This document shows positions 2,127-53,960 of a DNA stretch of 64,000 nt, in pieces. The DNA comes from Hyaloperonospora brassicae (Eukaryota; Oomycota; Peronosporomycetes; Peronosporales; Peronosporaceae): the NCBI GenBank assembly GCA_947650285.1, contig CANTFL010000106.1, forward strand, positions 434,001 to 498,000, written 5' to 3'. Position 1 is the stretch's first letter. Every line of letters starts with the position of its first letter. Both the position numbers and the translations under genes were made by a program. Under the pieces are notes generated by a model. That model made no database searches, was not told where the DNA came from, and saw nothing but the letters and a program-made list of their open reading frames with translations.

Positions 2127-4896
2127 ATGAAAGTTGTCTTTCAGGCAGCACGAGCCCTACAGTATGGAGGATATACGAATCTGTGTCGATCAGTTCGAAC
2201 ACTTTCGGAATCCGTGTTTTGGGAGAGCCCCTATATCACATATTGGGTGAACCGTGTGGTGCTGTGCCCTCTACACTCCGACCTTGCCCCGTTTACGTGT
2301 GCCGTGCCGTCTTTGCCAAATCGACCATCGTTGCGGCGGGTTGTGAGCTTCGCTGAGTCAATCAAACCCACCGTCAGAATGCACGCGCACATTTTACTGT
2401 CGTTCGTTGTTTCGCGGGTGGCTAAGGAAGGTGATAGACTTCGTCCATTGACCGTAGTTGACGAGCACGGCTCGATGCAGCATTTTCATACAATATCGTA
2501 GGTTGATACGCTCTCTCCGCTGATTCGGAGAATAGTCTTCTTTGTTGCCTTAGTTGTCTATCTTGTCACCTTGACGAAGCAAATCGATTCGAGAGCAAAT
2601 CCATTCACTTCTAACTTTTGCATCTCCATGGAACTTTGCAGACGGAGTCGCTCTTCTCGATATTGTAGTAAACAATGCAGGTATGTGTGTCTTGTCTGCC
2701 TGCGACCGCGCCTTCTACAATTCCGACGATCACTGCCCATTAGTCTGTCAAAGGTGCGCTTGATACTCGGTCGTAAAGGTTTCTGCCACTGCACAAAGCT
2801 ATGTGGATGACCATTGAAAACAGACCGGTCAAGTCTGAACGGTTCGCACGACATCTCGTCTTGGGTTGCGGTCTTTCGAGATACTTGGCTGCGGTGAACG
2901 AAAACCAATATTTTCAGCTGTCTCGGACGTGGGACCTTACCCTCTGCTCTGTCGTCCGCTCCTTGACCTGACCTTCAGCTGATGAAGCAAAACTACGCCA
3001 GTGCTATGTTTGCTTTCCTAGAAGAGATAGGTGGACGGCATCGTCACGCTAGCGGTCAGCGTGCTGTAAGACAGTTGCATCTGTTGACCTCCGCCTGATC
3101 AACTGTTATATCGTAGACTGTAGATTGGAGAGTGTTTCGAAAACGCATTGACGTGAGCTCAATTCCATGTATGATTCTGCTATCAACGGATTGTGCGTAC
3201 ATGTTCGCGTCTCGAGCGAAGCGGTGGCGGCTGATTAGTTTATGCAAGAATTTACAACTGTCTGGCTGGTAGAACGGATGAGACCCTGCCCTTGGGCCAA
3301 GGCCAATGGGACAATGTAAGTGTGAGTCTATGTGACGTACGCGCGACGCCGCAAAAGCAAGCGGTACATTCTCGTTGAGTCGCGGACACATCAGTGCACG
3401 TTTGCGGCGTAGACTGCGCAAGACCGCTTAAGCTCGCTTCTCGCGGTCTCACCTCTTCAGTGCAGCCTCTTTGACTTTTCGCGGTGGGTTGATACATAGA
3501 CGGAAGGACCGAAGTACTGTCCATGTATGCGTGGATAATCACATCGCACGAGCGAACCAGAGCATTGACACACATCGATGGTTTGCCACCACTTGTCCAA
3601 GCAGCTACCGTGTGTTTGTGTCGTCAGCGACAAGTACCCTTTCCTGTCACTCCGCGCCCGTTGGACACCTCTCTCTATTAATCACGTACGTGCAAGCCGG
3701 ACAATAAACCAAGAATCTGGCGTATAAGCTTCATTGATTGTGGCCATGATGAGCTAGCAAAAAGACTTCATACGTACGGAGCAACAGGACATGTACTTGT
3801 TGTCGACGATTTCAACCGTCGACCATCGAACTAGGTGGGCACCTCGCCGTCGTGTTTATGGCATCGTCTTTGATTCTGAGTGGTCGACACGTTTTGTCTC
3901 ACAAGCAGCTGTTTTTGACCCAGCGATAAGAAGTCGACGAAAGAACCTTCGCGATTGCTTCTTCCAACTGGATTTGGGGAGCTGGTGGGGGGTTTCTAAG
4001 CTCTTATGTTTACTTTTGCGGTTGCTTCCTCGCGTGAGCTCTTACCTCATCGCTCATGGGCTTTCCATAATCGATAGCCCTATCCAAATTCAAGGCCGTC
4101 TTCGTGACCAGTCATTGTAGATCGTAGCCGGATCAGTCATCGCTACAAATGTCGAACACACGCAAGGGACTATGAGTGGTCGATAAACTACGGCTGTGAC
4201 GGAGCAAGGGCTATGTAATACGTGTTTCAGCATCGCTGACTGGTTTCGAGAATCGAATAGGTCGTATCGTGTGTTGGAAAGACTCGACAGCCTGAGTTTA
4301 CGCTTACCTCCATCACCTTGTGTGTAGCCGGTAGTCGATCCATTCTACAATGGGGCGATGCAATTATTGGCTTTGGTTATGCTTCAGGTAGTTTACACCA
4401 AAGAACAGTAGTGTCGTTCCTGTGCGTTCTCTCAACACGACTTCACGAAAGCAAAAAATGCATTGTTTGCTTGACAAATGTCACAGAGGCTCGCTCATCC
4501 ATTCCACGACTGACTTTAATATTGGCAAAACTCTGATCGTGCGAGGGGAATTGGCACTCTACAAGGACGTAACTTCCAATGTAAACCTGCAGTTTGGCAA
4601 GACGCCTTCTTCATAGCAGATGCGTGTCGCGAACGCATCCTTCAGCAAAGCCGTAGCAAAGCGGTCGTCACTGATCATACAGACGAGTCGTTCTCGCAAA
4701 AAGAGGACAGGATGCTGCTTTCTTTGTTACCCACCAACTTACTGCAACTCGACGCATGTGATTGTGATGGGCTATCTGCTGATCGTCGCCAGCTCATTCG
4801 ACCGGTCCGCACAATGTCCACCGTGCAAGAAAGCGACGGTCGCTTTGGTCACGCTTCGGGTCGGTCGTAGCGTCAGATCGATCACTGCTGACTAGT
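2127..4896. other. Region upstream of the transporter, no gene seen
   Basis: About 2.8 kb of the left arm before the transporter. The ORFs here are short and resemble no family I know. The part from about 3580 onward is almost unchanged in the other arm, but that follows from the recent homogenisation of the arms and does not show that it codes. It probably holds the transporter promoter. Confidence 0.5.
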
Positions 4897-4913
4897 ACAT
4901 TCGACCACTTTCC
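4897..4913 (+). promoter_or_regulatory. Possible oomycete initiator (Inr-FPR-like)
   Basis: The sequence ACATTCGACCACTTTCC lies about 32 bases before the transporter ATG. It resembles the oomycete core promoter, a CATTY initiator followed by a CA..TTT flanking element. The same sequence is present in the right arm at 39639-39655. A second initiator-like GCTCATTC occurs near 4790. This is a pattern match only. Confidence 0.4.
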
Positions 4914-4944
4914 AATTCGCCTTCACTAGCGCAAGTAACTCGTG

Positions 4945-7900
4945 ATGGGTGCTAAAGATCACAAAGGCGCAGGCGTCATATCCATCGAATACGATGATGC
5001 CAAGACACTGCTCGCTCAAGGATCATCGGCACTCCATGAGCACGTGGCTTCCCGATTGAAGGCGTCCCGTGGCAAAGCACTTCCCCAGATTGAGGTGCGC
5101 TTCAAAGACGTGTCCGTTTCCGCAGATATCGCGGTCCAAGACGCGACAAACACGGAGACGCAGCTACCAACGCTGTCGAGCGAGTTGAGGAAGACCGTCA
5201 ACGGCTTGGTCGCCAAGAAGCACACGGCAACGAAGTGCATTTTGAAGGGGGTTACCGGAGTCTTCAAGCCAGGTACCATGACCCTCGTGCTCGGTCAGCC
5301 TGAATCGGGCAAGTCGTCCTTGATGAAGCTGCTGAGCAGCCGGTTTCCGCTCGACAAGGACATCAGGATCGAGGGCGACATCACATACAACGGCACACCT
5401 GCAAAAGAGCTGCGCCGCCTGTTGCCACAGCTCGTGTCGTACGTCCCGCAACGTGACAAACACTACCCTGAGCTGACAGTGAAGGAGACACTCGAGTTTG
5501 CACACGCTGCGTGTGGCGGCAAGTTGTCCGAACGCGACGCGAGTCAGTTAGTAAACGGCACTGCTGCGGAGAATGCAGAGGCTTTGGAAGCTGCTCGGGC
5601 GATGGCAAAGCATTACCCGAACGTCGTAATCCAGCAACTTGGTTTGGAAAATTGCCAGCACACCATCGTCGGTGACGCGATGATTCGAGGTGTGTCGGGA
5701 GGTGAGCGCAAGCGCGTGACAACGGGTGAGATGGCGTTTGGAAACAAGCACGTGATGATGATGGACGAGATCAGCACGGGTCTAGACAGTGCCGCGACGT
5801 TCGACATCATCACGATGTACCGCAGCCTCACGAAAAGTTTCTGCAAGACAATGGTGATCTCGCTTCAGCAGCCATCGCCCGAAGTGTTTGCGCTGTTCGA
5901 CAATGTGATGCTATTGAATGCAGGACACCTCATTTATCATGGGCCATGTACGGAGGTTCAGGACTACTTCAACAGTCTCGGTTTCAGGTGTCCTCCCACT
6001 CGTGATATCGCGGACTTTTTGCTGGACCTTGGCACGAGTGAACAGTACCAATACGAGGCAAAGCTCGATCGAGAACGTGCACCGATCCGCGCCCCGAGTG
6101 AGTTCGCTCGAGCGTTCGAGCAGTCATCAATATATGCGCAGACTCTTCAAGAGGTGGACGAGCCTGTACGTACGAATCTCGTCGAAGACATGGAAGACGC
6201 CATCGAGAATCAACCAGAGTTCTCTCAAAGCTTCTGGGAGAGTACGTCGCTGCTTGTAAACCGACAGCTCATCAACACGCGACGAAATACTTCATCCCTC
6301 TTTGGACGTCTGCTCGTGAACACCATGATCGCCCTGTTGTGCTCGATTGTCTACTTCCAATCCGACCTAGCTGATGTACAAGTGGCAATGGGTATCATGT
6401 TTGAGTCGGTGCTGAATTTGTCTGTCGGTCAGACTGCACAAGTTCCAACATATATGGCAGCAAGAGAAGTGTTTTACAAACAACGACGAGCCAACTTTTA
6501 CCGGACTGCATCGTACGTAGTTGCCCATGCTGTGGATCAGGCGTTTCCCGTTGTCCTCGAGACGGTCATCTATGGAACAATCATCTACTGGATATGTGGT
6601 TTCGTGAGCAGTTTCGATGGCTTCTTGGTATATCTGGTGGTGCTGTGCTTGACGAACCTCGCACTCGCTGCTTTCTTCTTCTTCTTGGCGTCTGCGTCAC
6701 CGAATCTCAACATAGCAGGCCCCTTGTCCAGTGTAGCGGTGGTATACGTGTGTGTGTTTGCGGGCTACACGATCACGAAAGACCATATTCCGAGCTACCT
6801 CATCTGGCTGTACTGGCTAAACCCCCTTGCGTGGGGAATACGCGCGCTGGCAGGCAGTCGATACAACGACTCCCGCTTTGACACGTGCGTGTACGATGGC
6901 ATCGACTACTGTGCAGACTACGGGACGAAGATGGGGAAGTTCTTGTTGAGTAATTACGAAGTTCCGTCGGGAGCGTTCTGGTTGTGGGGCGGAATGGCCT
7001 TTATGATCGGTACCTACGCTTTCTTCTTGGTCCTGTCTTGTTTCGCACTTGAGTACCATCGCTTCGAGCGGCCTGAGGTTGCTGTGCTGGCCACTGATAC
7101 GAAACCAAAGACTACGGACAACTACGTTGCTATTGACACACCACGCGGGTCCAATCGATGCAACGAGTTGACGGTTTCGGTGAGCCACGTAAGGGACAAC
7201 TACTTTGTCCCGGTTACCGTGGCGTTCAAAGACCTGTGGTACAGCGTTCCGGATCCGACGGATTCCAAGAAGACCCTCGACTTGCTCAAAGGCATCAGCG
7301 GATATGCCTTACCTGGCACCATCACAGCACTTATGGGGTCTTCGGGGGCTGGCAAGACGACACTCATGAACGTGATCGCTGGACGTATGACTGGTGGCAA
7401 GATCCGCGGACAGGTATTTGTGAATGGGCATCCTGCTTCGGATCTGACAATCCGTCGCTGTACGGGCTTCTGTGAGCAAATGGATATCCACGCGGAGTCC
7501 GCAACATTCCGCGAGGCGCTGACATTCGGTGCGTTTCTGCGCCAGAGTGCCGACGTCCCCGACGATCGCAAGTACGACTCGGTGACTGAGTGTCTCAGCC
7601 TTTTGGATCTCAATTCGATTGCAGACAAAATCATACGCGGCAGCTCTGTGGAGCAGATGAAGCGACTTACGATCGGCGTGGAGTTGGCAGCACAGCCAAG
7701 TGTGCTGTTCCTGGACGAGCCTACAAGTGGTTTGGATGCTCGCTCGGCAAAGCTGATCATGGACGGTGTGCGCAAAGTCGCCGATACTGGGCGGACTGTT
7801 GTGTGTACAATTCATCAGCCGTCGGCAGAGGTCTTCGGTCTTTTCGACAGTTTGCTACTACTGAAACGTGGTGGCAAGACTGTCTTTGCGGGTGACTTGG

Positions 7901-9027
7901 GCGAGAACGCTCATGAAATGGTCGCGTACTTCGAGTCGATCGATGGCGTAGCGAAGTCGGAGGAAGAGTCGAATCCGGCGTCATGGATGCTTGAAGTGAT
8001 CGGTGCTGGTGTCGGCAACAACAATGGGAGCAAGACTGACTTTGCGGGGAGCTTCCGAGCCAGTCGGCACTACGAGCTTCTGCAGTCAACTTTGGAATCC
8101 GAAGGTATCTGTCGTCCATCCGCGTCTGTGCCTGTGCTCCACTTCGAGACGAAGCGCGCTGCGTCCAACCTTACGCAGCTGAAGTTCCTGTTCCAGCGCT
8201 TCAGCAACCTCTACTGGCGCACGCCTTCATTCAATTTGACACGATTTGCTGTATCACTGGTGCTGGGTCTAGGCTACGGGATCACATACGCTGGAAGTGA
8301 GTACAAATCGTACTCCAGCGTGAACTCTGGACTCGGAATGATGTACTTGGTTGTCCTTTTCATTGGGTCCACCTCCTTCAACAGTGTGATTCCAATAGCG
8401 GCGGAAGAGCGTGCCGCCTATTACCGTGAGAGAGCGTCGCAAACGTACAGTACGTTTTGGTACTTTGTCGGCCTGGGTGTAACGGAGATCCCGTATGCCG
8501 CCGCCTCTGTGCTGCTGTTCTTGGCCCCGCTTTTTCCCATGGTAGGGTTTTCTGGACTCGGCCTCTTCTTTACCTGTTGGCTCGTTTTGCTGCTGCAAGT
8601 GCTGTACCAAGTTTTCACGGCCGTCGTGCTCGCTTTCTTGCTGCCAAACTTGGAAAGCGCAGAGATTACTGGCGTGCTCGTGAACAAGGTGGTTTACTTG
8701 TTTTCGGGCTTTAGCCCTCCCGCTTCCCGTTTGCCGTCAGCGGCTGTGTGGGTGTACCGTATCACACCGATGCGGTTCAGTGTTACAGCCTTCACAAGCG
8801 CCGTGTTTGGTGCGTGCAGTGGTGAGGGCGATCTCGGATGCACGCAAATGACCGACACACCCCCATCAATAGCTGCGAATCTCACCGTCGAAGGATACTT
8901 GGAAACCAACTTCTTGATCAAACACAGCGAAGTGTGGCAAAGCATCGGCGGGTTGACACTTTCCGTGCTTGTCATTGGACTGCTGGCGCTTGTAGCGATG
9001 CGCTTCTGTAACTACCAGAAGAAGTAG
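4945..9027 (+). CDS. Full-size ABCG/PDR-type ABC transporter
   Basis: A 1360-residue membrane exporter with two nucleotide-binding domains and two membrane domains in the reverse order (NBD-TMD-NBD-TMD) typical of PDR transporters, which expel lipids and toxic small molecules across the plasma membrane using ATP. NBD1 has Walker A at residues 117-124 (GQPESGKS), the signature VSGGERKRV at 250-258 and Walker B MMMDE at 271-275. NBD2 has Walker A at 798-805 (GSSGAGKT), a PDR-type signature around 899-911 (SSVEQMKRLTIG) and Walker B LFLDE at 921-925. The hydrophobic domains lie at about 440-690 and 1045-1350. I chose the ATG at 4945; an in-frame GTG directly before it is not a likely eukaryotic start. 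Length and motifs are complete and there is no intron, so the gene looks functional. It converges with the GH17 gene and has a near-identical broken copy at 35524-39607. Substrate is unknown. Confidence 0.96.
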   Translation: MGAKDHKGAGVISIEYDDAKTLLAQGSSALHEHVASRLKASRGKALPQIEVRFKDVSVSADIAVQDATNTETQLPTLSSELRKTVNGLVAKKHTATKCILKGVTGVFKPGTMTLVLGQPESGKSSLMKLLSSRFPLDKDIRIEGDITYNGTPAKELRRLLPQLVSYVPQRDKHYPELTVKETLEFAHAACGGKLSERDASQLVNGTAAENAEALEAARAMAKHYPNVVIQQLGLENCQHTIVGDAMIRGVSGGERKRVTTGEMAFGNKHVMMMDEISTGLDSAATFDIITMYRSLTKSFCKTMVISLQQPSPEVFALFDNVMLLNAGHLIYHGPCTEVQDYFNSLGFRCPPTRDIADFLLDLGTSEQYQYEAKLDRERAPIRAPSEFARAFEQSSIYAQTLQEVDEPVRTNLVEDMEDAIENQPEFSQSFWESTSLLVNRQLINTRRNTSSLFGRLLVNTMIALLCSIVYFQSDLADVQVAMGIMFESVLNLSVGQTAQVPTYMAAREVFYKQRRANFYRTASYVVAHAVDQAFPVVLETVIYGTIIYWICGFVSSFDGFLVYLVVLCLTNLALAAFFFFLASASPNLNIAGPLSSVAVVYVCVFAGYTITKDHIPSYLIWLYWLNPLAWGIRALAGSRYNDSRFDTCVYDGIDYCADYGTKMGKFLLSNYEVPSGAFWLWGGMAFMIGTYAFFLVLSCFALEYHRFERPEVAVLATDTKPKTTDNYVAIDTPRGSNRCNELTVSVSHVRDNYFVPVTVAFKDLWYSVPDPTDSKKTLDLLKGISGYALPGTITALMGSSGAGKTTLMNVIAGRMTGGKIRGQVFVNGHPASDLTIRRCTGFCEQMDIHAESATFREALTFGAFLRQSADVPDDRKYDSVTECLSLLDLNSIADKIIRGSSVEQMKRLTIGVELAAQPSVLFLDEPTSGLDARSAKLIMDGVRKVADTGRTVVCTIHQPSAEVFGLFDSLLLLKRGGKTVFAGDLGENAHEMVAYFESIDGVAKSEEESNPASWMLEVIGAGVGNNNGSKTDFAGSFRASRHYELLQSTLESEGICRPSASVPVLHFETKRAASNLTQLKFLFQRFSNLYWRTPSFNLTRFAVSLVLGLGYGITYAGSEYKSYSSVNSGLGMMYLVVLFIGSTSFNSVIPIAAEERAAYYRERASQTYSTFWYFVGLGVTEIPYAAASVLLFLAPLFPMVGFSGLGLFFTCWLVLLLQVLYQVFTAVVLAFLLPNLESAEITGVLVNKVVYLFSGFSPPASRLPSAAVWVYRITPMRFSVTAFTSAVFGACSGEGDLGCTQMTDTPPSIAANLTVEGYLETNFLIKHSEVWQSIGGLTLSVLVIGLLALVAMRFCNYQKK

Positions 9028-9370
9028 AGTCTAGACAATCAAATACTACAACTACAGTAGCTTCGGATCACATGGACGTTCTTGGTTCTCTTACGTTCTA
9101 GGTCCTCTCACAAGTGCCTACAATTTCTGCTTGTGATACAGTGTGGAGATGATGCATACCACTCAGACACTCTCTGCGTCTGTCTGAAACAAACATGTTT
9201 CACGGCTCAGTCTCATAGAGCAGACGCTGACATTCTCGGATCGATCAGTCAGTGGTATATGAGAAATACACGTGCGCAGGACAACGCACGCCTTATCTCA
9301 CTACTACTGTCTACCGTCATGGATATGGAACGACGCAGGCACTGTATGATCGGTCGATGGGTCGCTTCAG
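9028..9370. other. Convergent intergenic region
   Basis: This is the shared 3' region between the transporter (+) and the GH17 gene (-). It is still arm sequence up to about 9343, where divergence from the other arm rises sharply. I see no gene in it. Confidence 0.6.
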
Positions 9371-15513: not shown

Positions 15514-16047
15514 TGTAGCGGAGCTACACAGCTCCTTAAGTCAGTGGAAGACTTTAACGCTCAATGAGCAACTTAAGGTTTAGAGAACCCGACTCAAAGC
15601 GTCAACAGCTCAGAGAGCTAAGGTTTGGTTCAAAGATCCCGACTCAAAGAGACACCAAGCACATAGAGCTTACGGTCACTTTTCCAGGGGGACCAAACGA
15701 TTCAAAGAATCAAACGCACAGAGTGCACAAGGTATAGCTGCCTTAGCAAGGCGTTGCTACCTCCTTAACGATCGCAAGACGCATCAGAAAGGCACGTGTC
15801 TATCGTATCAAAATGGGAACTGAATTTTATTTCTTCTTTTAACCTAAATGAACACCTTAGAACAAAGTAATTAACCTACTCGCTAATGTCCTAAATAGAC
15901 CTATCAAAAGATCTCGTAACCAATGGTTGACAGACATCAGTCTTGAACAATCGATACTATGTTCTGATATTACTTTAAAAGGGGATCTCATCCCTTGTGT
16001 GAACCACACCTATTGTCGACTACCAGTCGACGTGTAACCCCTTTACA
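15514..16047 (-). repeat. 3' LTR of el.1
   Basis: The 534-base LTR starts TGTAGCGG and ends TTACA as read on +. It contains an internal imperfect duplication of about 50 bases around the motif CCCGACTCAAAG (about 15570-15670). It matches 22702-23234. Confidence 0.95.
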
Positions 16048-16060
16048 CCCTCCCCCACCA
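16048..16060 (-). other. Polypurine tract of el.1
   Basis: On the coding strand this reads TGGTGGGGGAGGG and ends exactly at the 3' LTR. It is the expected primer for plus-strand DNA synthesis and supports the - orientation. Confidence 0.8.
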
Positions 16061-16260
16061 GACTGACGTTACCACAAAATGTGAACCGAATTTTTCGCTC
16101 GAAGAGGACGGTGTGTGTGCGCTTCAACCTTCACGGTTGGCAAAACACAAAACACCAAGGGAAGCCACCCCATAGTTCCTCGACTCTCTCTTCCTACCTC
16201 AGCATTGATGTGGGGGTGGATAATGGTAGCGATACCGATATCCATGGTGACGAGAAGACA

Positions 16261-17268
16261 ATGTCCGACTTACCAGTACAAGAGGAACCGCCTCATACTG
16301 CACCAAACTCGTTTGCCGAGCGTGGCGAAGCCAACGCGCCATCGGCGCCGCATCAAACACTTATAGTGGGCGATGCCATCATCACCAATCCGCTCGATGA
16401 GCAACAAAAGTTACCTATCCAACGAGAGGAGAGCGCTCAGCGCCGTATGCAGCTTGCTGCAACTCTTGAGGGTCGTCGTTGCTATCTGTTCACCCCACTC
16501 AGTGTGGAAGAGCGTATACGCCAAACGACAGGTCGTTCTTTGGCAACGTGGGCCATTGGCGCTGAGCCAACATCTTCTGATGAGGTGGCGAGGCGACAGG
16601 TACTTCGCGAGAGGTACCTGCAACCTTACTTGACGACTGAGTGTCAATACAAGTTGCGACTTGACACGCAAGCACGGGGTGCACCGGTTCTACCGATGAC
16701 GGGTATACCCATTAACCTGTTCGCAGAAAAATCTCAGGAGGAAGAAGACAACGCTTTTGTTCTCTGGGTGCATCGGAAAAGACACCTCAGCAGCGTTTTG
16801 GCTCTCAGAGCAAGTGCCGATGTGGCAGATGTTCGTCTAGAACGAAAGCTTCGATATGATTACGCCAAGCTAAAGGCCAGAGGCCAGTTGCGAAGTCGCA
16901 CACGCTATGCTCCGGCTTTTCCTGTTGATGTGGGTGTTGGTCAAGCGATGCCCAACTACCCACCTGCCTCCACCACTATTGGTGATAAGCGCTCTCGGTC
17001 GAGGGATGACCCCTGCCACGATGTTCAAAAACATCAACGGCGTATGGGCGATCCTACCGAAGGGGTATCTCAGACTCCCATGAGTTCTCCGACTCCGGGT
17101 ACCCTCGCCACTTCACTAGATACTGGTATTGACCCTGACGACGACGTCGTTTCAGGAGTCACTTCAAATGGAACTGGCGGCCCTTGCTCATCGAGCGGCG
17201 TCAAGGGTGGTCGGTTTACAGAAGGAGGAGCATACAAAGGTGCTCCTCGAGTTGAGTGGTCTCCGTGA
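16261..17268 (+). CDS. Opposite-strand ORF in el.1 (aORF), unknown function
   Basis: An intact 335-codon ORF from the ATG at 16261, running opposite to gag-pol, between the integrase end and the 3' LTR. The frame stays open upstream through 16081 and into the LTR, so the true start is uncertain. I recognise no domain. Visible features are an acidic N-terminal part, a charged central block (residues about 110-210) with motifs ATWAIG, ERYLQPYLTTE, RLDTQARGAPVLP and KLKARGQLRSRTRYAP, a basic KRSRSRDD stretch, and a Ser/Thr/Pro-rich tail. The same block is found, decayed but ungapped over about 110 residues, on the opposite strand of el.2 (33200-33570). It is the longest undamaged frame in an element whose gag-pol is broken. 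Some plant Ty3/gypsy elements carry antisense ORFs at this position; whether this one is related is unknown. Confidence 0.7.
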   Translation: MSDLPVQEEPPHTAPNSFAERGEANAPSAPHQTLIVGDAIITNPLDEQQKLPIQREESAQRRMQLAATLEGRRCYLFTPLSVEERIRQTTGRSLATWAIGAEPTSSDEVARRQVLRERYLQPYLTTECQYKLRLDTQARGAPVLPMTGIPINLFAEKSQEEEDNAFVLWVHRKRHLSSVLALRASADVADVRLERKLRYDYAKLKARGQLRSRTRYAPAFPVDVGVGQAMPNYPPASTTIGDKRSRSRDDPCHDVQKHQRRMGDPTEGVSQTPMSSPTPGTLATSLDTGIDPDDDVVSGVTSNGTGGPCSSSGVKGGRFTEGGAYKGAPRVEWSP

Positions 17269-17410
17269 GACATTGGGTAGGACCCAGATTGTGTTTGACG
17301 CGATGCAAGCCCGTGTTGAGGTGTTGATGTTGGGCCAAGCCCGTGTCCAGGCATTGGAGTTTAGCCAAGCCCGGATGGAGGCTCAGCTTGACCTCCTGAT
17401 ACGGATGTAG
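17129..17410 (+). CDS. Overlapping coiled-coil ORF downstream of aORF
   Basis: A 93-codon + strand ORF in a different frame overlaps the end of the aORF by about 140 bases and the end of integrase (opposite strand) by about 50. Its second half is helical and heptad-like. It includes three exact-length 30-base repeats at 17306, 17336 and 17366 that encode QAR(V/M)(E/Q).L-type decapeptides. The frame is conserved in el.2: H.K..L....L.ETL..TQ recurs there on the opposite strand. It may be the C-terminal part of the aORF protein, reached by a frameshift or lost through an indel in this copy. Function is unknown. Confidence 0.5.
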   Translation: MTLTTTSFQESLQMELAALAHRAASRVVGLQKEEHTKVLLELSGLRETLGRTQIVFDAMQARVEVLMLGQARVQALEFSQARMEAQLDLLIRM

Positions 17411-18641
17411 CAACCGATGGCACGATCAACCTATGCGGCGCAATATCATCCAAGTTCACGTGGGACGGATTCCGATACGGCTTAAGCAAGCCCAAGTAGA
17501 ACACAGGGTGTGTGCGCACTTTGCGCGGAAGGTTGAGCGTATACGCAAGTCCCGTCTTGACGACGACCGTAAATGGTCCAATGAAGCGCGGACTCAACTT
17601 TGTCTTGAAGGCGGCGGACACTACATTTGTAGGTAGGATTTTTTCATTTAGTAGCATTTTGTCTCCGACCTCATAATGTTCAATACAATCTCTGCCTTTA
17701 GCATCAGCTTGTTTCTTCTGCTTGTCTTGGATATAAGCCAGTGCGTGACGCACATATCGTAAGACATTTAATCGCGTTGCGAGAAACTTGCTTACCTGAT
17801 TTTGAACAGTAGCAGAGCTGAAATCAGCAATCCGATCGGCAACGCCTCCCCCACCAAGCATTGAACCACGCAGTGGTAGCGTTAACAGAACGCGAGGGTG
17901 TGTGATACCATTCACATAAAACGGTGTGTAGCCGGTGGAGGCATGCACGGCGTTATTCAACGCAAACTCAACGACAGGGAGCATCGAGCTCCTACGCTTA
18001 GGCGTTTCAGCGCAAACACTGCGCAAGATGTCACCGATGATGCGATTCACTCGCTCGATTTGACCATCTGTCTGCGGATGATCCGCTGTGGACATGTACA
18101 ATCGTGTGCCGAGCACCTTGAAGATGGACCTTCAAAAATCATCAGTGAAGCAAGGATCTCTATTAGAGACAATTGCCAACGTCAAACCGTGTTGTCGAAA
18201 CAAGCGATCGATAAACAGCGTAGCTGTACCCTCACCATCAATGGTATCCGGCACCGCCGCTAAATGATCCATCTTGCTCAAACGGTCAACAAAGATTACA
18301 GGACCCGTATTGCCGTACGAATCTTTCGGTAAACCGAACATTAAATCCATGCTGATGGACTCCCAACATCCCTTGGGTATAGGAAAACTATCCAGGGGCG
18401 CGGCAGCGTGAGGTGAGGGTTTCACCCGTTGACACGTTTCACACGTACGCACATATGTGCTCACCCATTTGTACAGTTTAGGCCACCAATAGCATTGGCT
18501 AACTGAGCCGTAGGTCTTTTCACGACCGAGATGACCAGTCAACGCAGTATCATGTGCCTCATAGAGGATCCAATACTTCGACTCTTCATCATGAGGAACA
18601 ACGATACGAGGGGTATCCTCCACATCCGTGCTATAGCACAA
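17361..18641 (-). pseudogene. el.1 integrase, one in-frame TGA
   Basis: Integrase of Ty3/gypsy type. At the N-terminal end (18641 down) is a zinc-binding HHCC region with the CETCQR motif, then the catalytic core with MDLMFGLPKDSYG and the STADHPQTDGQIERVNR block. Next is the GPY/F module (PRFIGPF near 17520), with the typical ending HPVFYLGLLKPYR. The frame is continuous from 18641 to 17361 except for one TGA near 18131. The el.2 copy has TGG (Trp) at that codon, so it is a G-to-A change. No chromodomain follows. Confidence 0.88.
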
Positions 18642-18647
18642 CAGGCC

Positions 18648-19240
18648 TTAATCGATGGAATGTCGATGTAGCCTCGCACGTAATCGTGCCGACAATTCTA
18701 TGTCTGAGTCCTTAAACTCCTCTATACCTAGAGCACATAGCAGAGCTACACAGTGTTCATCCTTGGCATATGCCGTACAGATTAAATCAGTGACCGACGA
18801 TGACAGAGTCGTCCAATGAGCAAGCTCATAGTCAGGCCTGCGTGACAACGCATCAGCCAAAGCATTCTGCTCGCCGAGCTTATACTTCACCTCGAAGTTG
18901 TACTCGGCAAATAATGAAGGCCAACGATCCATTCTTTGAGAGAGGTGAGGCAACTGGGAAGCAGTGCGTAGTGACGAATGATCTGTATAGATCAAAAACG
19001 TCTTAGAGCCAAGCAGATGAACTCTGAATTTGACGAGAGCATACTTCATTGCAAGTAGCTGTTTGTCATGAACAAGATAAATCTTTTCTGCATCCTTTAG
19101 CTGTCGAGACTCAAACGCAATGACGCGTTACCGTCCATCAGAATCTGTTTCTAACAGGGCCCTACCTATGGCAAAGTCAATGCGTCACAGACGACACTGA
19201 AAGATCGATCAGGATCAGGCAAAGCCAAGATTGGCGCATG
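18648..19240 (-). pseudogene. el.1 RNase H
   Basis: The RNase H domain of gypsy pol: FLIYTDHSSLRTAS carries the catalytic Asp region, followed by MDRW and the connection motif GEQNALADALSRRPDY. It is in frame with integrase but separated by a TAA at 18648, with another TAA upstream near 19126. Function is lost in this copy. Confidence 0.85.
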
Positions 19241-19306
19241 AAGGAGACTCTCCTTTACTGCTTGAAAATAATCATGCTCGGTGCTAGTCCAACACCATTC
19301 CACATC

Positions 19307-20065
19307 CTATTTAAGGAGATTGGATAATGGCCGAGTCATGTCTGCGTAATACGCACTGTACTTGTGTAAGTAATTGGCAAGGCCAAGCCACTTACGTAAG
19401 TATTTTTGATTCATTGGAACCGGCCAATCAACTATGGCTTTTACCTTAGCGGGATCCGCTCTAATACCTGGCTTACCAATAAAGCACCCTGAAAAGGGAA
19501 TCTCTTGTGCACCAAAGATGCACTTGGACGCGTTGGCATATAGCTTATTTGGGCGCATGAACTCGAGCACCGCTCGTAAATGGTCAATGTGATTGTCCAC
19601 ATCTGACCGGCCGTTCATAGCACGACTATGGACAAAGATGTCATCAAAGTACGTATGTGCGTATCCTCGGTGAGGTCTAAACAATTGTGTCACGAGACGA
19701 TTGAATGTAGCCGGGTCATTATATACCCTTGCGGCATAACGAGCCACTCCCAGAGCATACCGCTCGGAGTGCTGACCGCTGATAGCGGAAGATCTCGCTC
19801 TCGCATGAGCAGCTGGTAATAACCATCGACGAAGTCGAGCGCACTGTACATTGTACATCCCACCATATTGTTTTAATTAACATCCTTCCTCGGAATTGGT
19901 GTCTGGCCGGGATGGTGGCCGCATTAAGCTTATTGTAAGCATGAACAATGCGACACTTCCCATTGGGCTTTTTGACACAGAAGTTCGGTGTGGAATGGGG
20001 AGATTTGCTCTCACGTACCATTCCTGCCGCGTGCTTTGCACGAACGAAGTCGTATATGATGTCAC
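19307..20065 (-). pseudogene. el.1 reverse transcriptase
   Basis: The fingers motif (NFCVKKPNGKCRIVHAYNKLN, about 20020-19930) lies in one frame and the palm active site YFDDIFVHS (about 19650-19620) in another, so at least one frameshift separates them. The thumb side ends LSNLLK before a stop at 19307. The order agrees with Ty3/gypsy pol. Confidence 0.85.
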
Positions 20066-20300
20066 ACTATTCCTTAGGTAAAGGCCACTGCCGTGTTACC
20101 CAGTATTTAGCTCCAGGGACCAAGTCAATTTCATGACGTACACCTATATCGGGAGGTAAGACGGACGGTGGGTTGTGACACACCACGTCTTGAAATTCCT
20201 TCACAACAGGATAGAACGGATCAAGAGGATCCTTAAGGATCGAAGATACACTACGGGCATCCTATACCGCCTTTGTGTCCTCAAGGATAGACTCCTCCAA

Positions 20301-20936
20301 TTACGAGGATGAGTTCAACTCATTTTCTGGCCGAATGACCACTAACTCAAATAATTCTCCTGCCTGTAAAGCTTGGATAAATTCGCCGTCAGACATTTTG
20401 TCTAAGTCATAGAGAGTATCCAAGGATGGAAGAGTCTCAAGACTAATATTGCCATCAATCTGACCAGTCAACCCATTGACAAGTGTATATAGTGTATTGT
20501 TACTATTATCACTTCGTGATTTCTTCGACGTTGGGCGCTTAACATTTTCCACCCTACGATGAGATAGTTTCCTCAAAGAAACCTTAAGCCTCGTAGAGGC
20601 CGGGACAGTAGTGTCCCCGTAAGTGCTGTTCATCTTAGCACGCTCTATACGAGAGCTCATGTCTTGAACGACATCTGGTGAAGTGTTACGTAACTCGAAC
20701 ATTTCACCCAGTGGATTTACACGTACCACTTCACGTACAGCATCCGGGCCTAGCCCTGAACACTCTGGATTTTCGCCATCAATGTTATTACCGACATTCA
20801 GTGAGGTGCCACCTCGGCCGCTATCACTCGGTGGAATTTCACGTGCCACCCCACTCACATCAGAGGAATTACATTCTTGATGTCTCGGCCCTAGGCCAAC
20901 CAGCATGAAGTGACTCAGTATCACAACGAATATCAC
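20301..20936 (-). pseudogene. el.1 linker between protease and RT
   Basis: A 211-codon open stretch, acidic and Ser/Asn-rich, ending with an alpha-helical segment (DGEFIQALQAGELFELVVIRP). It lies between the protease and reverse transcriptase. It has no enzyme motif and is probably part of the polyprotein. Confidence 0.6.
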
Positions 20937-21555
20937 TCAACGGAGTATAAATCCTCTCACATAAGGTAAAAGAGATCCGCTCAATCTTTAGGTCATTGAC
21001 ATTGGAGTTAATTAACTCTGACATACCAATATCCAGCACATTGACATCTTCCGTCAACGGCTCGCGCCAATAGCGCTTTTGTTGCCTAGCAAAGGTGGGT
21101 TCATGACTCTCCAAATCTTCGCTAGGAACATTGCGCGTGGCGCCTAAGGTCTTAGACCTCTAATTAATCCATGGTACACGGCGTTCAAGCCAAGCCATAC
21201 CCAGGATGAGATCATACCTCGAATCCAAATCGAGGACAAGATAGCGTTCAATGCTGTCAAAGTCCAAAAAGTTCACACCTAAGTTCAACGGAACTTTAGG
21301 CACCGTGACGCAACTATCAGTCGCTAGCTGAACGGTGAACGAATCAACTTCATGCGCTTTGAGCGCTTCATCGTATCGCTGAATTCCCTCAAGAAAACGA
21401 CGTCGAGCGTGATTGCATGATGCTCCGTAGTCGATTAGAATCGACCAATGCTTCTCAAAGCCTTGAATTATCGCCTCGTCGACTAACAATCCAGGCTTGT
21501 ATCCACGCTCTGTGCTGGCTGGCACAGAGATCTGCGGGTCTAAGCCCTGTTTCAC
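20869..21555 (-). pseudogene. el.1 aspartic protease
   Basis: A retropepsin-like domain. The active-site region reads ILIDYGASCNHAR, where D-[ST]-GA is expected, so Ser/Thr is replaced by Tyr. The flap/core segment reads LDLDSRYDLILGMAWLERR. A continuation (SHEPTFARQQKRYWRE) lies in another frame at 21114-20869. Because the active-site residue after Asp is changed, this copy is probably inactive. Confidence 0.8.
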
Positions 21556-21611: not shown

Positions 21612-22643
21612 CTATTGGGTGGCGACGTTTCCCCGTGCCATACCAGGTTTCTGGTTGGGGCTGGGGTTTCTACCCATAGGAATCGGTTGTTGCTTACGCA
21701 AAGGACAAGTGGGACGCAAGTGTTTAGTGCTTCCGCACATATAACAGCGTCTCACTTTCTGTCGTTGCTCTGAAACATGAAGCTCCGCTTCACCTTCATC
21801 ATCAGCATGGCTGAGATCCATCGGTTCTGGCTTACAGTAAGCCGAGGTGCTCGCAGAGGTGGCCCTCGCAAAGCTTGGGTTGTACCCATTCCAACCAAGA
21901 CTGGCCGACTTGAAATTGTGATCAGCATTTTGAGCGATGCTAACCGCTTCCTCAAAAGTATAGAGATGGCCCGAAACACCTCGGTCCTGGCAACGCCATT
22001 ACAAAGACCTTCCATGAAGACAGTCACATAGACTGTCTCAGAAAGAGGGCCCGACTGTATAGCAGCCATCAGAGTTATCAACTCTTGGACATAGTCCGTT
22101 AACTCATTCTTACCCTGATGAGTAGACAAGAAGCGTGAGCGCACGCGATAAGCCTGTTTAGGCGGCGAGGAAACTCGCAAAGAGCTAACTTGAGCGAATC
22201 CCATGTGGAAAACGCCAAGTCGACCGACATGCCACACGTCAGAGCCCACTCGATAGCTCTTCCATCGAGCTTGGAGATAGCCGGCGAGACCCTCTGGTAC
22301 TCCAGTGAGATAAGGCCAGAGCTCATGGCCATCTCAATCTCACGTATCCAGAGGGTGAGGTTACCCCCTCCTTTCCGGAGTAATGTTTGACGTCCACCCG
22401 AAGCAGACGAGGCTTAGCATCTTCATCAGGCATCGCCACGTAGCGTGTTGGCATAGCCGACGCTACTTGGTTTTAAACCTGCACCAACAGGGCCGTTTAA
22501 TACTGCATGAAGGTCTCGACTCGTGCATTGAGCACATCGGGACCTTGTGCAGCTAGAAACTTCACATATTCTGGGCCTACGGCTGCGGTCAGCTTCTCAA
22601 GCGCGGCCTTTTAGGCCTCAGAGAGGGGTATGGATTGCTCCAT
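21612..22643 (-). pseudogene. el.1 gag with CCHC zinc knuckle, broken
   Basis: Starts at the ATG at 22643 (MEQSIPLSEA). Three in-frame TAA codons at 22611-22613, 22497-22499 and 22473-22475 each stand where the local context suggests Gln. Two frame changes follow. The capsid part is recognisable (AMSSGLISLEYQ, RVSPAISKLDGRAIEWALTC, then YRVRSRFLSTHQGKNELTDY and VFMEGLCNGVARTEVFR), and the nucleocapsid knuckle CYMCGSTKHLRPTC (C-x2-C-x4-H-x4-C) lies near 21755-21710. This matches the common oomycete gypsy gag layout. Confidence 0.85.
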
Positions 22644-22701: not shown

Positions 22702-23234
22702 TGTAGCGGAAATACACAGCTCCTCAAGTCAGTGGAAGACTTTAACGCTCAATGAGCAACTTAAGGTTCAGAGAACCCGACTCAAAGAGTCAACAGCTCC
22801 AAGAGCTAAGGTTTGGTTCAAAGATCCCGACTCAAAGAGACACCAAGCACATAGAGCTTACGGTCCTGTTCCAGGGGGACCAAACGATTCAAAGAATCAA
22901 ACGCACAGAGTGCACAAGGAATAGCTGCCTTAACAAGGCGTTGCTACCTCCTTAACGATCGCAAGACGCATCAGAAAGGCACGTGTCTATCGTATCAAAA
23001 TGGGAACTGAATTTTATTTCTTCTTTTAACCTAAATGAACACCTTAGAACAAAGTAATTAACCTACTCGCTAATGTCCTAAACAGACCTATCAAAAGATC
23101 TCGTAACCAATGGTTGACAGACATCAGTCTTCAACAATCGATACTATGTTCTGATATTACTTTAAAAGGGGATCCCATCCCTTGTGTGAACCACACCTAT
23201 TGTCGACTACCAGTCGACGTGTAACTCCGTTACA
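22702..23234 (-). repeat. 5' LTR of el.1
   Basis: 533 bases, TG..CA ends as read on +, matching 15514-16047. The target duplication GGATA follows at 23235-23239. Confidence 0.95.
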
Positions 23235-29997: not shown

Positions 29998-30892
29998 CGT
30001 CGGACGATCGACACACGAAGAGGTCGTTACTCGGGTGCTCGGAATAAGCGGGTACTATTCGATAAGGGACCTTCTGGTGCCGGGAGCGGGCGAACCTCAC
30101 CCTAATTTTAATGAAAGGGAGGTTCTAAACGGTTGTGGCGTGCACATGGAGAGGGTTAAACGGCGGGACTGATTAAGTGAAAGTACGAGTGCTCAGTTAG
30201 ACCGACACTGTATGTAGACTAACGGCGCAGGGGACGACTGTGGTAAAGCTACCAGTGAAATTTTCGATACGAGATCAGATCGCGTCCCCGTTCTATCCAA
30301 TTTGGCAAACGGTTAGCGGCGCCGGTCTCACACCTGATCGGATCACGTCCACTGGACAATTAGATAGAATCGGATATCAGATCTGAAAGGATGGAACCTG
30401 CGGCATCAGGTTAAACTATGACGAACGAAGAATAAAAATCATGGCTCTTCGATCACTGTAAACGGGACGATTACGATGGAGATCAAGGAGACGATCGTGA
30501 CCGATGATCAGGTATGGGATCGCGATTATGTTGGTGTGGGCCACTATAAGCGATAGCGATCAGAGGACCGTGTACCACAACATGTGATCCGCGATCAGCA
30601 ATGAGATCACGATCAAGGAGATGAACAAGATCAAGGAGGCGATCAGGTATGTGGTCGCGATCAAGCTAGTTTGGGTTACACTACACGATCTGCGAACAAA
30701 AAAAAGATTGCGATTAGGCAAGCATACCAGGTGTGTGCTATACAAGTACAAAGGAAGGACCTTCTCGAGAGAGCAACAACGTGGCATGCTATGTCTGAGA
30801 TATGGGGATAAGTACAGGGTTGCTAGATTCGATTTAGTAAGATAAAACAGAGTTCGATTTGCTTCTACAAATACGCGTCGTCTCTTCCAGGA

Positions 30893-31424
30893 TGAATTGT
30901 TTGGCCACCCGACGTCACAGATTACGCTACACCTGCAAAAGAATCTCACCTGTATTGTTTTGACAGGTGCGTAAAGGACTCTCACCCCCTAAAACTGCGA
31001 TCGGACGCAGGAAATCCTTTGTACGGAAAGACGTAAGATCGTGAGATGGCTCAAGTGGTCAGAAGGCTCGCGAATCAATGTCTATATTTTGGATAGACGA
31101 CCTGTTACAGATCAGGGTGACTCATACCGAGCACCCTACAAGTATACAAATGATCCCGTGACGGGCGCTACGTGATCACACTAATCCCAGATCGCGGTAT
31201 AAAGAATATCACACCCAGATCGAACCTCGGCTTTATCATAAACACGTTCAATTCATTCATCGACACGAGTCCATCAAAGAAGTTCAACCCGCCCTACCAA
31301 CGGGTACACAAGACGAGGAAGGCTATCAAGAGCATGGAAACGGATCACCCCTCCGACAATCGGTCGTCTGGGCGCCAGCGGCTATCCGGGACCACAAGGT
31401 CGTTTTGATCACTACTCCACCACA
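30893..31424 (-). repeat. LTR of element A (copy of 53339-53871)
   Basis: 532 bases. On the - strand it begins TGTGGTGGAG and ends CA. It is highly similar over its whole length to 53339-53871, and the similarity stops at both ends exactly at TG and CA. Flanking pentamers (CAGGA and CTTAC) do not match, so it is not a simple solo LTR. Confidence 0.85.
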
Positions 31425-31559
31425 CTTACGCCAAGGATGAACAATGTGTAGCTGTTGCTACGTGCTCTTTGGAGCGACGAGCTCAGGGACCCAGATATTT
31501 AAAGTCGGCATCATTATGTGCGAAGCTACATTGATATTTCGTCGAGCGCGGCCTGCTGG

Positions 31560-32869
31560 GCTTTATCACGGATGATGAGTATACTCCTCATACCGTTGTT
31601 CCTCATGATGAGAAGTTGTTGTATCGGATCCTCTATGAGGCACATGAGGTTGCGTTGAGTAGTCATTTCGATCGTGAGAAGACCTATGGATCAGTTAGCC
31701 AATGCTATTGGTGTCCTAAACGCTGAAAATAGGCAAGCACGTATGTGAGTACATGCGAAACGTGTCAATAAATCAAATCTTATTTATTTTCGGCTGCGCC
31801 GCTAGCTAGTTTGCCTGTACCTAAGGTAGGGTGGGCGTCCATCAGCATGAATTTCATGTTTGGTTTACCAAAAGTATCGTATAGCGATACGGGTATTGTG
31901 GTCTTTGCTAACCATTTAAGCAATATGACTCATTAAGCCGCTGTTTTAGATACCATTGATGTTGAAGAATCAGCTACAATGTTTATTTATCGAGTGTTTC
32001 GACAACACTTTTTGCCTGTGACAAGTGTCCTTGACCGAGACCCTCGCTTCACTTCGAAGTTTTGGAAGTCAATCTACAAGGTGATAGACACAAATCTGGA
32101 CATGTCTACAGCGGATGATCCGCAGACCGATGGCCACACCGATGGAATAATTCGCGTAATCGGTAACATATTCGAGTGCTTGCGTCAATACAGCAAAACG
32201 TTTTAGTACGATGGTCTATGTCGTTAAATTTGTGTTGTACAACGCTTTTCATGGCTCTACAGGCTTTACTCCGTTCTGTGCAAACAGTCTCACACACACC
32301 CTCGTTCCGTTAATGCTACCACTACGTGGTTCACAGCTTGATGAGGGAGGGTTTGACAATAGGCTCGCTGAATTTATCGTATAATATATCCAAAAACAAG
32401 TAATCAATCTTCTGAAATCACGATTGGATGTCTTACGACATGTGCGTGGCGCACTGGATGTTAGCCAAGACAAGCAGAAGAAACAAGCTGATGCGAGAGT
32501 TAGAGGTTGTAGTGAAGGTTATGGGTTTGGAGACCAAATGCTACTTATTGTTAAATCCTACCTACAAATGTAGTGTCCGCTGTCTTCAAGACAAAGTTAC
32601 GTCCGCGCTTCATTGAACCTTTCACGGCCGTTGCTAAGAAGCGGCCTGCGTATACGCTCAATCTTCCGCGCAAAGTGCGCACACACTCTGTGTTCTACGT
32701 TGGCTTGTTTGAGCCGTATCGGGATCCGTCCCACGTGAACTTGGAAGCTCTTGCGCCGCGACATCTGGCATGGTTCTCGGCTGCTGAATCCGAACCAAGA
32801 TGTCAATATGAGCCTACATCCGAGTCTGACTTAATTCCACCTTATGAAGATGAGCTTGCGTCGCATTGA
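31560..32869 (+). pseudogene. el.2 integrase
   Basis: Decayed integrase. The zinc region VSTCETCQ is at about 31745, the core FTSKFWKSIYKV plus STADDPQTDGHTDG at about 32050-32145, and the GPY/F-like LRPRFIEPFTAVAKK with VFYVGLFEPYRDPSHVN at 32590-32740. Several stops and frame changes are present. It keeps Trp where el.1 has TGA. Confidence 0.8.
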
Positions 32870-32879
32870 GCGCGCTCTG

Positions 32880-34060
32880 GGTATCACTTAAGGTCTCATG
32901 GAGACAAGTCATCTTGAGCATCAATTTTCTATGCTCCTTCTACGGTACACTGACCATCACCGACGCTGCTCGATGAACAAGGAACAACCAGTTTCATGTA
33001 TAGAGGCTCCTGAAACGACGTCTTCGTCATGGCCAATGTCAGTATCTGGTAAAGTGGCGAGGGTATTCGGAGGCGGGTAATGCATTGTAGTATAATATGA
33101 CCTTTCAAACGGGGGGCATATGCCGTGGATGATTTCGAATGTCGTGGTAAGGTGATCCTGCGACAGAGTGTACTTCGCACCAATAGAGGTGTGAACAGTG
33201 AGGTTCTTGGTCGCTGCTTCATCAAAAATTTACAGCTCCCGGCATAGCCGAAGCAAAGTGGAGGCTAATTTGCCATTGGCCTCTGATCTAAAGCGGAAGC
33301 CGACGCTTTCGTTCGAAACAAATATACGACACATCGGCGTTTGTTCTTTTAGCTACCACGCTGCTGAAGCGTCCAACTCGATGAACTCAGCGCATAAACG
33401 CGCTCTCCCCTTCCTGCTGAGATTTGCCTGCATAGAAGAGAATGGATATACTATAAATCGGTGGAACTGGTGCGCCTTGTGCTTGCACATTAAGTCTCGC
33501 CGTGGATTGACAATGGGTTGTTAAATACGGCTGCATGTACTTCTCGCGAAGTGCCTGTAGTCTCGCCACCTCTTAAGAAGAACTAGGTTCTAGACCGATG
33601 GCCCATATTGCTGATGAATGACCAATCGTTTGACATACACGTCATTCCACCTGCGTAGAGTCAACAGATATTCAAGACGGCCTTTACGAGTAACAGCAAG
33701 CTATGTGTAACGTAGAGAGCTTTCTCCTTGCTGAATGAACAGTTGCTGTTGCTCATCAGGCGGATATGGGATGATCGCATCGCCCGAACCGGGTGTTTGA
33801 TGCTGCACCATTGGTGCATTGACCTTGCCACATTCAGCGAAAGGATTGGGTGCCGTATGAGGCTTTCCTTAGGCACAGATGGGCTGGACAATGTCCCTGC
33901 ATCACCATGAACACTGGTGACGCAGACACATATCGCAACAATAGCCCACCTCCTAATCGAGATCGAGGTAGGGAGAAAGAGTCTGAGACTCATGGGGTGG
34001 CGATACCTAAGTGTTTAGTGCTTTAAGAAAACGTGTCATGGAACGCACACACCATCCTCT
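32880..34060 (-). pseudogene. el.2 copy of the opposite-strand ORF
   Basis: On -, this region aligns with el.1's aORF. LREKYMQPYLTTHCQS and LNVQAQGAPVPP at 33569-33387, followed by VHRVGRFSSVVAKRTNADVS, match el.1 without gaps. The coiled-coil frame near 33000-32880 (HRKLMLKMTCLHETL) is also retained. Several stops are present, so this copy is dead. Its value is that it shows the aORF belongs to the element family. Confidence 0.7.
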
Positions 34061-35214: not shown

Positions 35215-35523
35215 GGCGCCTGCTTCGTTCCATAATAGTTGTCGGTAGAAGTTGAATAAGGCGCGCATTGTCCAGCGCAGGTGTTTTCTCATATACCACT
35301 GACTGATCGATCCGAGAATGTCAGCGTCTGCTCTATGAGACTGAGCCGTGAAACATGTTTGTTTCGGATAGACGCAGAGAGTGTTTGAGTGGTATGTATC
35401 ATCTCCACACTGTATCACAAGCAGAAATTGTAGGCACCTGTGAGAGGACCTAGAACGGAAGAGAACCAAGAACGTCCATGTGATCCCAAGCTGCTGTAGT
35501 TGTAGTATTTGATTGTCTAGACT

Positions 35524-39607: not shown

Positions 39608-39638
39608 CACGAGTTACTTGCGCTAGTGAAGGCGAATT

Positions 39639-39655
39639 GGAAAGTGGTCGAATGT
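39639..39655 (-). promoter_or_regulatory. Possible initiator of copy 2
   Basis: Identical to 4897-4913 of copy 1, about 32 bases before the ATG. Confidence 0.4.
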
Positions 39656-53338: not shown

Positions 53339-53871
53339 TGTGGTAGAGTGGTGATCAAAAACGACCTTGTGATCCCGGATAGCCGCTGGCGCCCAGACGA
53401 CCGACTTTTGGAGGGGTGATCCGTTTCCATGCTCTTGATAGCCTTCCTCGTTTGTGTACCCGTTGGTAGGGCGGGTTGAACTCCTTTGATGGACTCGTGT
53501 CGATGAATGAATTGAACGTGTTTATGATAAAGCCGAGGTTCGATCTGGGTGTGATATTCTTTATACCGCGATCTGGGATTAGTGTGATCACGTAGCGCCC
53601 GTCACGGGATCATTTGTATACTTGTAGGGTGCTCGGTATGAGTCACCCTGATCTGTAACAGGTCGTCTTATACAAAATATAGACATTGGTTCGCGAGCCT
53701 TCTGACCACTTGAGCCATCTCACGATCTTACGTCGTTCCGTACAAAGGATTTCCTGCGTCCAATCGCAGTTTTAGGGGGTGAGAGTCCTTTACGCACCTG
53801 TCCAAACAATACAGGTGAGATTCTTTTGCAGGTGTAGCGTAATCTGTGACGTCGGGTGGCCAAACAATACA
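53339..53871 (+). repeat. 5' LTR of element B
   Basis: 533 bases, starting TGTGGTAGAG and ending CA. It is an inverted copy of 30893-31424. The pentamer before it is ACCAT. Confidence 0.85.
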
Positions 53872-53960
53872 GCCCGAAAAAGATATCTGTGTTGTATAGC
53901 ATTATTTTGACAATCGATATCTTTATGGGGGTGAGGGAACAAAGATACGGCAACGCAAGG

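Follow-up and report, generated by a model that had tools for sequence, protein, structure and literature searches.

The window analysed here, a stretch of 64,000 nucleotides from the oomycete Hyaloperonospora brassicae (contig CANTFL010000106.1, positions 434,001 to 498,000), carries an LTR retrotransposon on its minus strand, el.1, bounded by LTRs that are 97.0% identical by self-comparison, together with a second element, el.2. Opposite gag-pol, at the 3' end of each, lie the remains of a further gene, here called the antisense gene. The features are as follows, in window positions, with similarities measured against copies of the family (L031, L032) found elsewhere in the genome.

15514..16047, minus strand: 3' LTR of el.1 (534 nt, matched to 22702-23234 by self-comparison; repeat families D1/D2)
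16048..16059, minus strand: polypurine tract adjoining the 3' LTR (direct reading; CCCTCCCCCACC on the plus strand)
16157..16159, plus strand: start-codon site of the family, start lost (AAG, not ATG)
16159..17181, plus strand: antisense gene, residues 2-342 of 433 (88.6% identity to the L031 protein by tblastn, free of stops)
17177..17482, plus strand: antisense gene continued one frame over, residues 342-433 (72.5% identity by tblastn, with one stop and an insertion of 10 residues)
16976..17182, minus strand: frame-shifted C-terminal end of pol with the chromodomain region, facing the antisense gene (tblastn, polC residues 699-767, 87%, 3 stops)
17181..21555, minus strand: remainder of pol (protease, RT, RNase H, integrase) in several broken frames
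21615..22643, minus strand: gag remnant in three frames, 3 stops (tblastn of L032 gag)
22702..23234, minus strand: 5' LTR of el.1 (self-comparison; repeat families)
31412..33186, plus strand: decayed C-terminal part of el.2 pol, overlapping the el.2 antisense gene on the other strand
32712..34006, minus strand: decayed el.2 antisense gene in four pieces, 12 stops

The first-pass annotation had described, between integrase and the 3' LTR of el.1, a 335-codon ORF opposite gag-pol followed by an overlapping coiled-coil ORF, both intact in an element whose gag-pol is broken. The two frames exist - one open on the plus strand over 16081-17268, with an ATG at 16261 and 335 codons, the other at 17129-17410 - and gag and pol are indeed spread over several frames with stops, but the antisense frames are neither intact nor separate. 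Beside the AAG that stands in place of the family start codon one base is missing, and the ATG at 16261 is an internal one, equivalent to methionine 36 in the family protein. At about 17177-17181 a frameshift splits the antisense gene and breaks pol at the same place (polC pieces 43-698 and 699-767), and a stop follows at 17408-17410, yet similarity extends to 17482. The 335-codon ORF is contained in the piece that matches residues 2-342, and the supposed coiled-coil ORF belongs to the same protein, being its C-terminal end past the frameshift (residues 342-433), so the two-gene reading is rejected; judged by alignment to its relatives, the antisense region of el.1 is a decayed copy of one 433-codon gene. 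Nor does the block lie wholly outside gag-pol: in intact copies 160 of its codons overlap the 3' end of pol.

El.2 shows the same arrangement of antisense gene and pol and is a relative in advanced decay. That it holds a related block in the same arrangement is thus as first described, but the block is not ungapped for about 110 residues, since residues 2-113 contain four stops and a 4-residue insertion. The antisense genes of el.1 and el.2 are both pseudogenes. The window holds other repeats as well. Two long inverted copies (2113-9266 and 35285-42455, 87-99% complementary piecewise, about 26 kb apart) each carry a long open frame, the right-hand one a PDR-type ABC transporter (Pfam). A shorter inverted pair (30881-31406 and 53358-53883, 95-100% complementary, about 22 kb apart) adjoins the pol remnant of el.2, and a frame at 43174-43923 encodes a Tc5-type HTH domain and matches DDE weakly (E 0.12).

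A six-frame search of the assembly (100.6 Mb, 898 contigs) with the 335-residue protein returned 1754 first-look candidates, and among the 120 copies scored the matched stretch was free of stops in 44 and contained a stop in 76, as counted from the rows listed. Most matches end at query residue 306-313 because the relatives continue in another frame. A second search, likewise made with the antisense ORF, gave 1443 first-look candidates, of which 95 were scored; 71 loci were fetched. Counts of copies, all from this one genome, refer to best hits. L002 and L031 have one continuous antisense ORF of 433 codons, and an ATG with an ORF of at least 420 codons is present in 37 of the 71 fetched loci (32 distinct copies), a proportion that is no family rate because the loci were picked by similarity to the antisense protein or, in a few cases, for openness. 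In 34 of 61 fetched loci the pol piece is lesioned too. The start codon lies about 109 nt from the edge of the 3' LTR in intact copies, its context is CACCATG in all 32 distinct intact copies and CACCATGG in 30 of them, and the polypurine tract is the same as that of el.1 or nearly so. From there the antisense gene fills the space up to pol and then overlaps it tail to tail, its last 160 codons lying opposite polC residues 608-767, which comprise the linker between integrase and chromodomain and the chromodomain itself.

The coding capacity of the element is best seen in two copies. L032 has an open gag with Retrotrans_gag and Ty3_capsid domains (Pfam) and an open pol with the order RVP_2, RVT_1, RT_RNaseH, H2C2, rve (Pfam), ended by a stop that removes the last 24 codons present in L031; in L031 pol is split upstream into several frames and the chromodomain is whole. 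The chromodomain (PF00385) is matched with E 3.9e-14 in L031 and with E 1.2e-12 in L032, there over the first 39 of 53 positions. With its LTR pair, gag, order of pol domains and polypurine tract, the element is a Ty3/gypsy LTR retrotransposon, and with a chromodomain at the C-terminus of pol it is a chromodomain-bearing gypsy. The oomycete element Chronos is likewise a Ty3/gypsy with a chromodomain at the end of pol, as far as its description goes (PMC5348765), but the second, archaeal-type RNase H of Chronos was not found in the one pol searched, that of L032 (Pfam, E up to 0.1), which has a single RNase H with RT_RNaseH and RT_RNaseH_2 on the same stretch; in this respect the copy differs from Chronos. 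The pol of L032 also contains a 120-nt in-frame tandem duplication (5919-6158 of that locus, 88% alike).

Intact copies fall into two lineages, G1 (L031, L032 and others) and G2 (L064-L069 and L071), the antisense proteins of G2 being 64.9-69.1% identical to that of L031. For codons 1-273, which form the part of the antisense gene free of pol, nine chosen pairs gave dN/dS values of 0.38 and 0.42 within G1, 0.30 and 0.29 within G2, and 0.17-0.22 between G1 and G2 (five pairs). Frame-wise dN/dS and position-wise differences were taken from 15 of the 32 distinct intact copies (8 G1, 7 G2), including L027, in which a broken pol frame adds noise to the pol columns of the codon-position table. Over 56 G1-G2 pairs, which share one divergence and so are not statistically independent, mean dN/dS for codons 1-273 was 0.21 in the antisense frame and 1.22, 1.35, 1.14, 0.34 and 1.65 in the five other frames. 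The frame at 0.34 is the one whose third positions mirror the true ones, and on average 18.9 of its 272 codon pairs contain a stop; the comparison with control frames proposed at the outset therefore sets 0.21 against 1.14-1.65 in four of five frames. Differences are concentrated at third positions (0.54, against 0.22-0.28 at second and first). Frequent stops together with a dN/dS near 1 had been named in advance as signs against a gene: stops are frequent among the scored copies, but dN/dS between lineages lies far below 1. Selection at the protein level, originally suspected from the window copies, is borne out by the intact relatives and their dN/dS, not by the window copies. Purifying selection acts on the 433-residue protein in the frame that encodes it, and we are nearly certain that this oomycete Ty3/gypsy family contains a real, selected antisense protein gene.

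Where the two genes overlap, constraint is divided between the strands. The register pairs the third position of each pol codon with an antisense second position, and its second position with an antisense third. Over the 250 codons of pol that precede the overlap, differences at positions 1, 2 and 3 amount to 0.103, 0.080 and 0.270; inside it they are 0.112, 0.203 and 0.188, so that pol second positions are freer and third positions more firmly held, as expected if the antisense frame matters. We compared pN/pS of both frames over 42 pairs (6 x 7 copies) from 13 copies, L027 and L054 being excluded for broken pol frames and L028, with one pol break, being kept. For the coiled coil the ratio is 0.44 in the antisense frame and 1.20 in the pol linker, and for the stretch opposite the chromodomain it is 1.15 in the antisense frame and 0.29 in pol. 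The antisense ratio is below that of pol in 99.0% of 2000 codon-bootstrap draws for the coiled coil, a result based on few changes (fixed differences 4, 3 and 6 by codon position), and in 1.3% opposite the chromodomain, while for the overlap taken in full the two frames have similar ratios (antisense 0.60, pol 0.70, bootstrap share 0.692). A second run gave a similar result. It is thus the antisense frame that preserves the coiled coil, pol having no more than a linker there, and the pol frame that is preserved where the antisense gene faces the chromodomain. A GT and an AG at antisense codons 276 and 333-334 (L031 numbering) are present in all 32 distinct intact copies and bound a stretch absent from an annotated P. 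destructor protein; the codons between them, opposite the chromodomain, may possibly be an intron.

The part free of pol has a history of its own. Compared in 100-nt windows, LTR, leader, overlap and pol of four G1-G2 pairs show 78-97% identity, apart from a single window in the LTR (73-80%) and the outermost one (67-72%), which is partly flanking DNA, and identity is 56-76% in all eight windows from +20 to +819 relative to the ATG; L031 and L032 also have one low window there (71%). Nine copies have a pol that can be aligned as a single piece. In all five G1-G2 pairs compared among them, third positions diverge by 0.57-0.60 in the domain and by 0.21-0.27 in pol, the domain exceeding pol with a bootstrap share of 1.000 in each. 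Pairs taken inside G1 or inside G2 have similar values for domain and pol in four cases out of five, the odd one being L065-L069 (0.147 in the domain, 0.077 in pol). In a wider set that includes broken pol frames, the G1 subgroups differ at third positions by 0.209 in pol and 0.125 in the cassette. The trees likewise disagree: by LTR, G2 falls inside the L032-type group (distance 0.113, against 0.159 between the two G1 subgroups); by cassette there are three separate clades, with the G1 subgroups closer to each other (0.136 against 0.337); and by pol, G2 is weakly near the L031-type copies. Over residues 91-250 the G2 domain is 65.6-66.2% identical to that of L031, for which the values in P. 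matthiolae and H. arabidopsidis are 71.2% and 68.9%. From these comparisons it looks as though the pol-free cassette was swapped between two lineages by recombination, uniting a younger backbone with a cassette that is old and diverged. The same picture would result if, instead of recombination of the cassette, the remaining parts of the element had been homogenised. The dN/dS conclusions are independent of the swap.

An AlphaFold2 model of the antisense protein, built with 70 aligned sequences, predicts a disordered acidic N-terminus (1-73), a basic domain (79-241) of seven helices, the first of them long, and two short strands, a disordered linker (249-354) and a coiled-coil helix (357-409). 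Confidence per ten residues is 87-94 at 81-100 and 121-240, 65-78 at 101-120 and 88-97 over 361-410, and is low at 16-73 and 249-354; it is because of the disordered parts that mean pLDDT for the full protein is only 65.8, and the globular domain modelled alone reaches 84.5 (pTM 0.67). In four copies the N-terminus has a net charge of -7 to -11 and the globular part a pI of 9.4-10.2. A membrane span is expected at a hydropathy of about 1.6; the highest 19-residue value is 0.78-1.08 in these four copies, and no span is seen in them. The libraries searched yielded no convincing sequence-family, PDB-sequence or fold match, among them none pointing to nucleic-acid binding, and no Pfam or NCBIfam family.

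A first database search with the antisense protein gave 99 homologues at E up to 0.001, down to 33% identity, and a 19-row profile gave 122, of which 120 are listed, each among about 8000 scored candidates; no precomputed Pfam domain occurs among the homologues listed. The 78 of 99 that bear an organism name always belong to Peronospora, Hyaloperonospora or Phytophthora: P. destructor, P. matthiolae, P. effusa, H. arabidopsidis and H. brassicae in the first two genera, and Phytophthora ramorum, P. cactorum, P. idaei and P. citrophthora in the third. Seven Phytophthora proteins of 497-608 residues align over the domain and the part facing the chromodomain, some with gaps, which suggests that the Phytophthora genes share the overlapping layout.

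The gene lies antisense to gag-pol between pol and the 3' LTR, as does an antisense accessory ORF of that slot (aORF-3R), with its 160 codons of overlap with pol, and the dN/dS results show the conservation as protein that is another mark of an aORF-3R; it belongs to the plant and fungal kind of antisense accessory ORF. The likeness to antisense ORFs of plant gypsy elements drawn in the first-pass annotation is therefore apt. In plants such ORFs are described between pol and the 3' LTR of Grande (gene23), RIRE2, Retand (ORF4) and PvRetro13, the Grande protein being nuclear with its own promoter and the PvRetro13 protein having an SMC-domain match (PMC7264820). Slot and orientation are the same; the host group is different, no shared Pfam family was found, and, unlike the plant ORFs as described, the oomycete gene runs over the 3' end of pol and has a coiled coil coded opposite the pol linker. 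A fungal counterpart is the antisense gene brtn in the Boty elements of Botrytis (as cited in PMC8365987; Boty is also named in PMC7264820), likewise carried by an LTR element whose host is a filamentous plant parasite. Retand, too, has an antisense protein with a domain that may bind DNA, TRP28, but its regions between POL and 3' LTR measure 2.9-6.6 kb (PMC11963269), against less than 1 kb of pol-free space here, and it is of a non-chromovirus lineage according to the account available, whereas the oomycete pol ends in a chromodomain. Transposase_28 (PF04195) had no match in two members of the antisense protein at E up to 10, and it is absent among the matches listed (25 of 29 families) for 69 members at E up to 1. 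By this measure the protein is no member of the TRP28 group, though it may be remotely related below the reach of HMMs.

The HBZ protein of the retrovirus HTLV-1 combines an acidic part with a coiled coil and has a regulatory role. It too is an antisense protein encoded at the 3' end, with an antisense promoter in the 3' LTR (PMC10186651). We cite it as an analogy and claim no homology; the oomycete protein has no basic-zipper family match. The available text of three papers on oomycete elements (PMC5348765, PMC6570648, PMC3522703) makes no mention of an antisense ORF - the words 'antisense' and 'opposite' are absent from the main text of the first, on Chronos - and that of papers on brown-alga and rotifer elements (PMC12477816, PMC5408684) describes none. 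The earlier remark that no described oomycete case was known agrees with the matches listed for oomycete, Phytophthora, Peronospora and downy mildew literature, and for more general searches, in the open PMC subset, among which we found none.

What might the protein do? We favour, with moderate confidence in the statement as a whole, an oligomeric accessory or regulatory protein of a multicopy chromodomain Ty3/gypsy element, coded opposite gag-pol. A second, antisense message would be made near the 3' LTR, from the LTR or the short leader; its product would oligomerise through the coiled coil, contact nucleic acid or chromatin through the basic domain, and tune expression or integration of the element, a role of the sort put forward for such proteins in plants and known for HTLV-1 HBZ. 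The consensus of the oomycete start motif has no match better than in shuffled sequence on the antisense strand of LTR and leader. On the sense strand the LTR contains TCAGTTCCCATTTT or TCAGTTCCCCTTTT, about 325-336 nt from the antisense ATG (L031, L032, L064, L066), with one to two mismatches to the oomycete Inr-FPR start motif against a shuffled best of 3.3-3.4, which makes this a likely start of the gag-pol message. The LTR also holds an inverted repeat, ATCAATTGTTGA ... TCAACAATTGAT, at about 1158-1195 in L031 and also in L064 and L066 (exact in L066, one mismatch in the other two), which is a possible binding site.

The alternative that survives best, though we think it rather unlikely, is a structural or integration partner, part of the particle or the integrase complex and needed in each transposition cycle. 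Presence in several genera and selection as for a needed part would suit it, as would the tail-to-tail overlap, which ties the gene to the integrase-chromodomain end. However, antisense orientation would require a separate transcript, the literature consulted, as far as its text extends, contains no structural antisense protein, and a cassette of about 65% identity is combined with a far more similar pol, an argument against close adaptation to one particular pol. It is improbable that the gene is a captured host gene or a passenger fragment of another mobile element: its abrupt cassette edges and lack of Pfam matches to gag or pol domains agree with capture, but both database searches, among about 8000 scored candidates each, yielded nothing but uncharacterised or unnamed proteins, from the same three genera whenever an organism is given, and there was no match to a Pfam or NCBIfam family. 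Capture may still describe the remote origin of the gene. Slightly less probable again is that an antisense RNA, pairing with gag-pol as dsRNA or acting as a non-coding regulator, is the real product and the ORF secondary. Roles for non-coding antisense transcripts are described in retroviruses (PMC10186651), and in the data presented in PMC3522703 gypsy elements of Phytophthora infestans are matched by small RNAs in both orientations, but the frame-specific constraint seen at third positions is at odds with it and dN/dS refutes it as the sole explanation; a role beside the protein is possible. A shadow of pol, or a chance frame without selection of its own, would account for the stretch opposite the chromodomain, where pol is the constrained frame, and for nothing else: the low dN/dS of residues 1-273, outside pol, and the constraint on the antisense frame in the coiled coil refute it, leaving it barely any probability. 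An env-like third gene, suggested by the slot between pol and 3' LTR, can be dismissed on strand and on a hydropathy below the membrane-span threshold of about 1.6 in four copies.

Within the favoured reading, an accessory or regulatory protein, the division of constraint and the apparent swap together raise a further idea, speculative and on present evidence unlikely, of a module with split constraint, in which the coiled coil is locked to pol by two-strand coding and the N-terminal 270 residues form a specificity cassette that is swapped whole. If true, the cassette would determine the set of elements on which the protein acts, for example in self-limitation or in the exclusion of rival elements. 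That would explain why the backbone is younger than the old, deeply diverged cassette it carries, and why the cassette edges fall near the start codon and the pol stop. The overlap itself is a natural case of two proteins dividing shared DNA, with a structured part opposite a linker on each strand. The finding also bears on annotation, because such proteins are listed as uncharacterised in public downy mildew and Phytophthora proteomes. With at least 32 distinct intact copies, a compact overlap and two diverged cassettes, the family offers a clean comparative system for the antisense accessory genes of gypsy elements.
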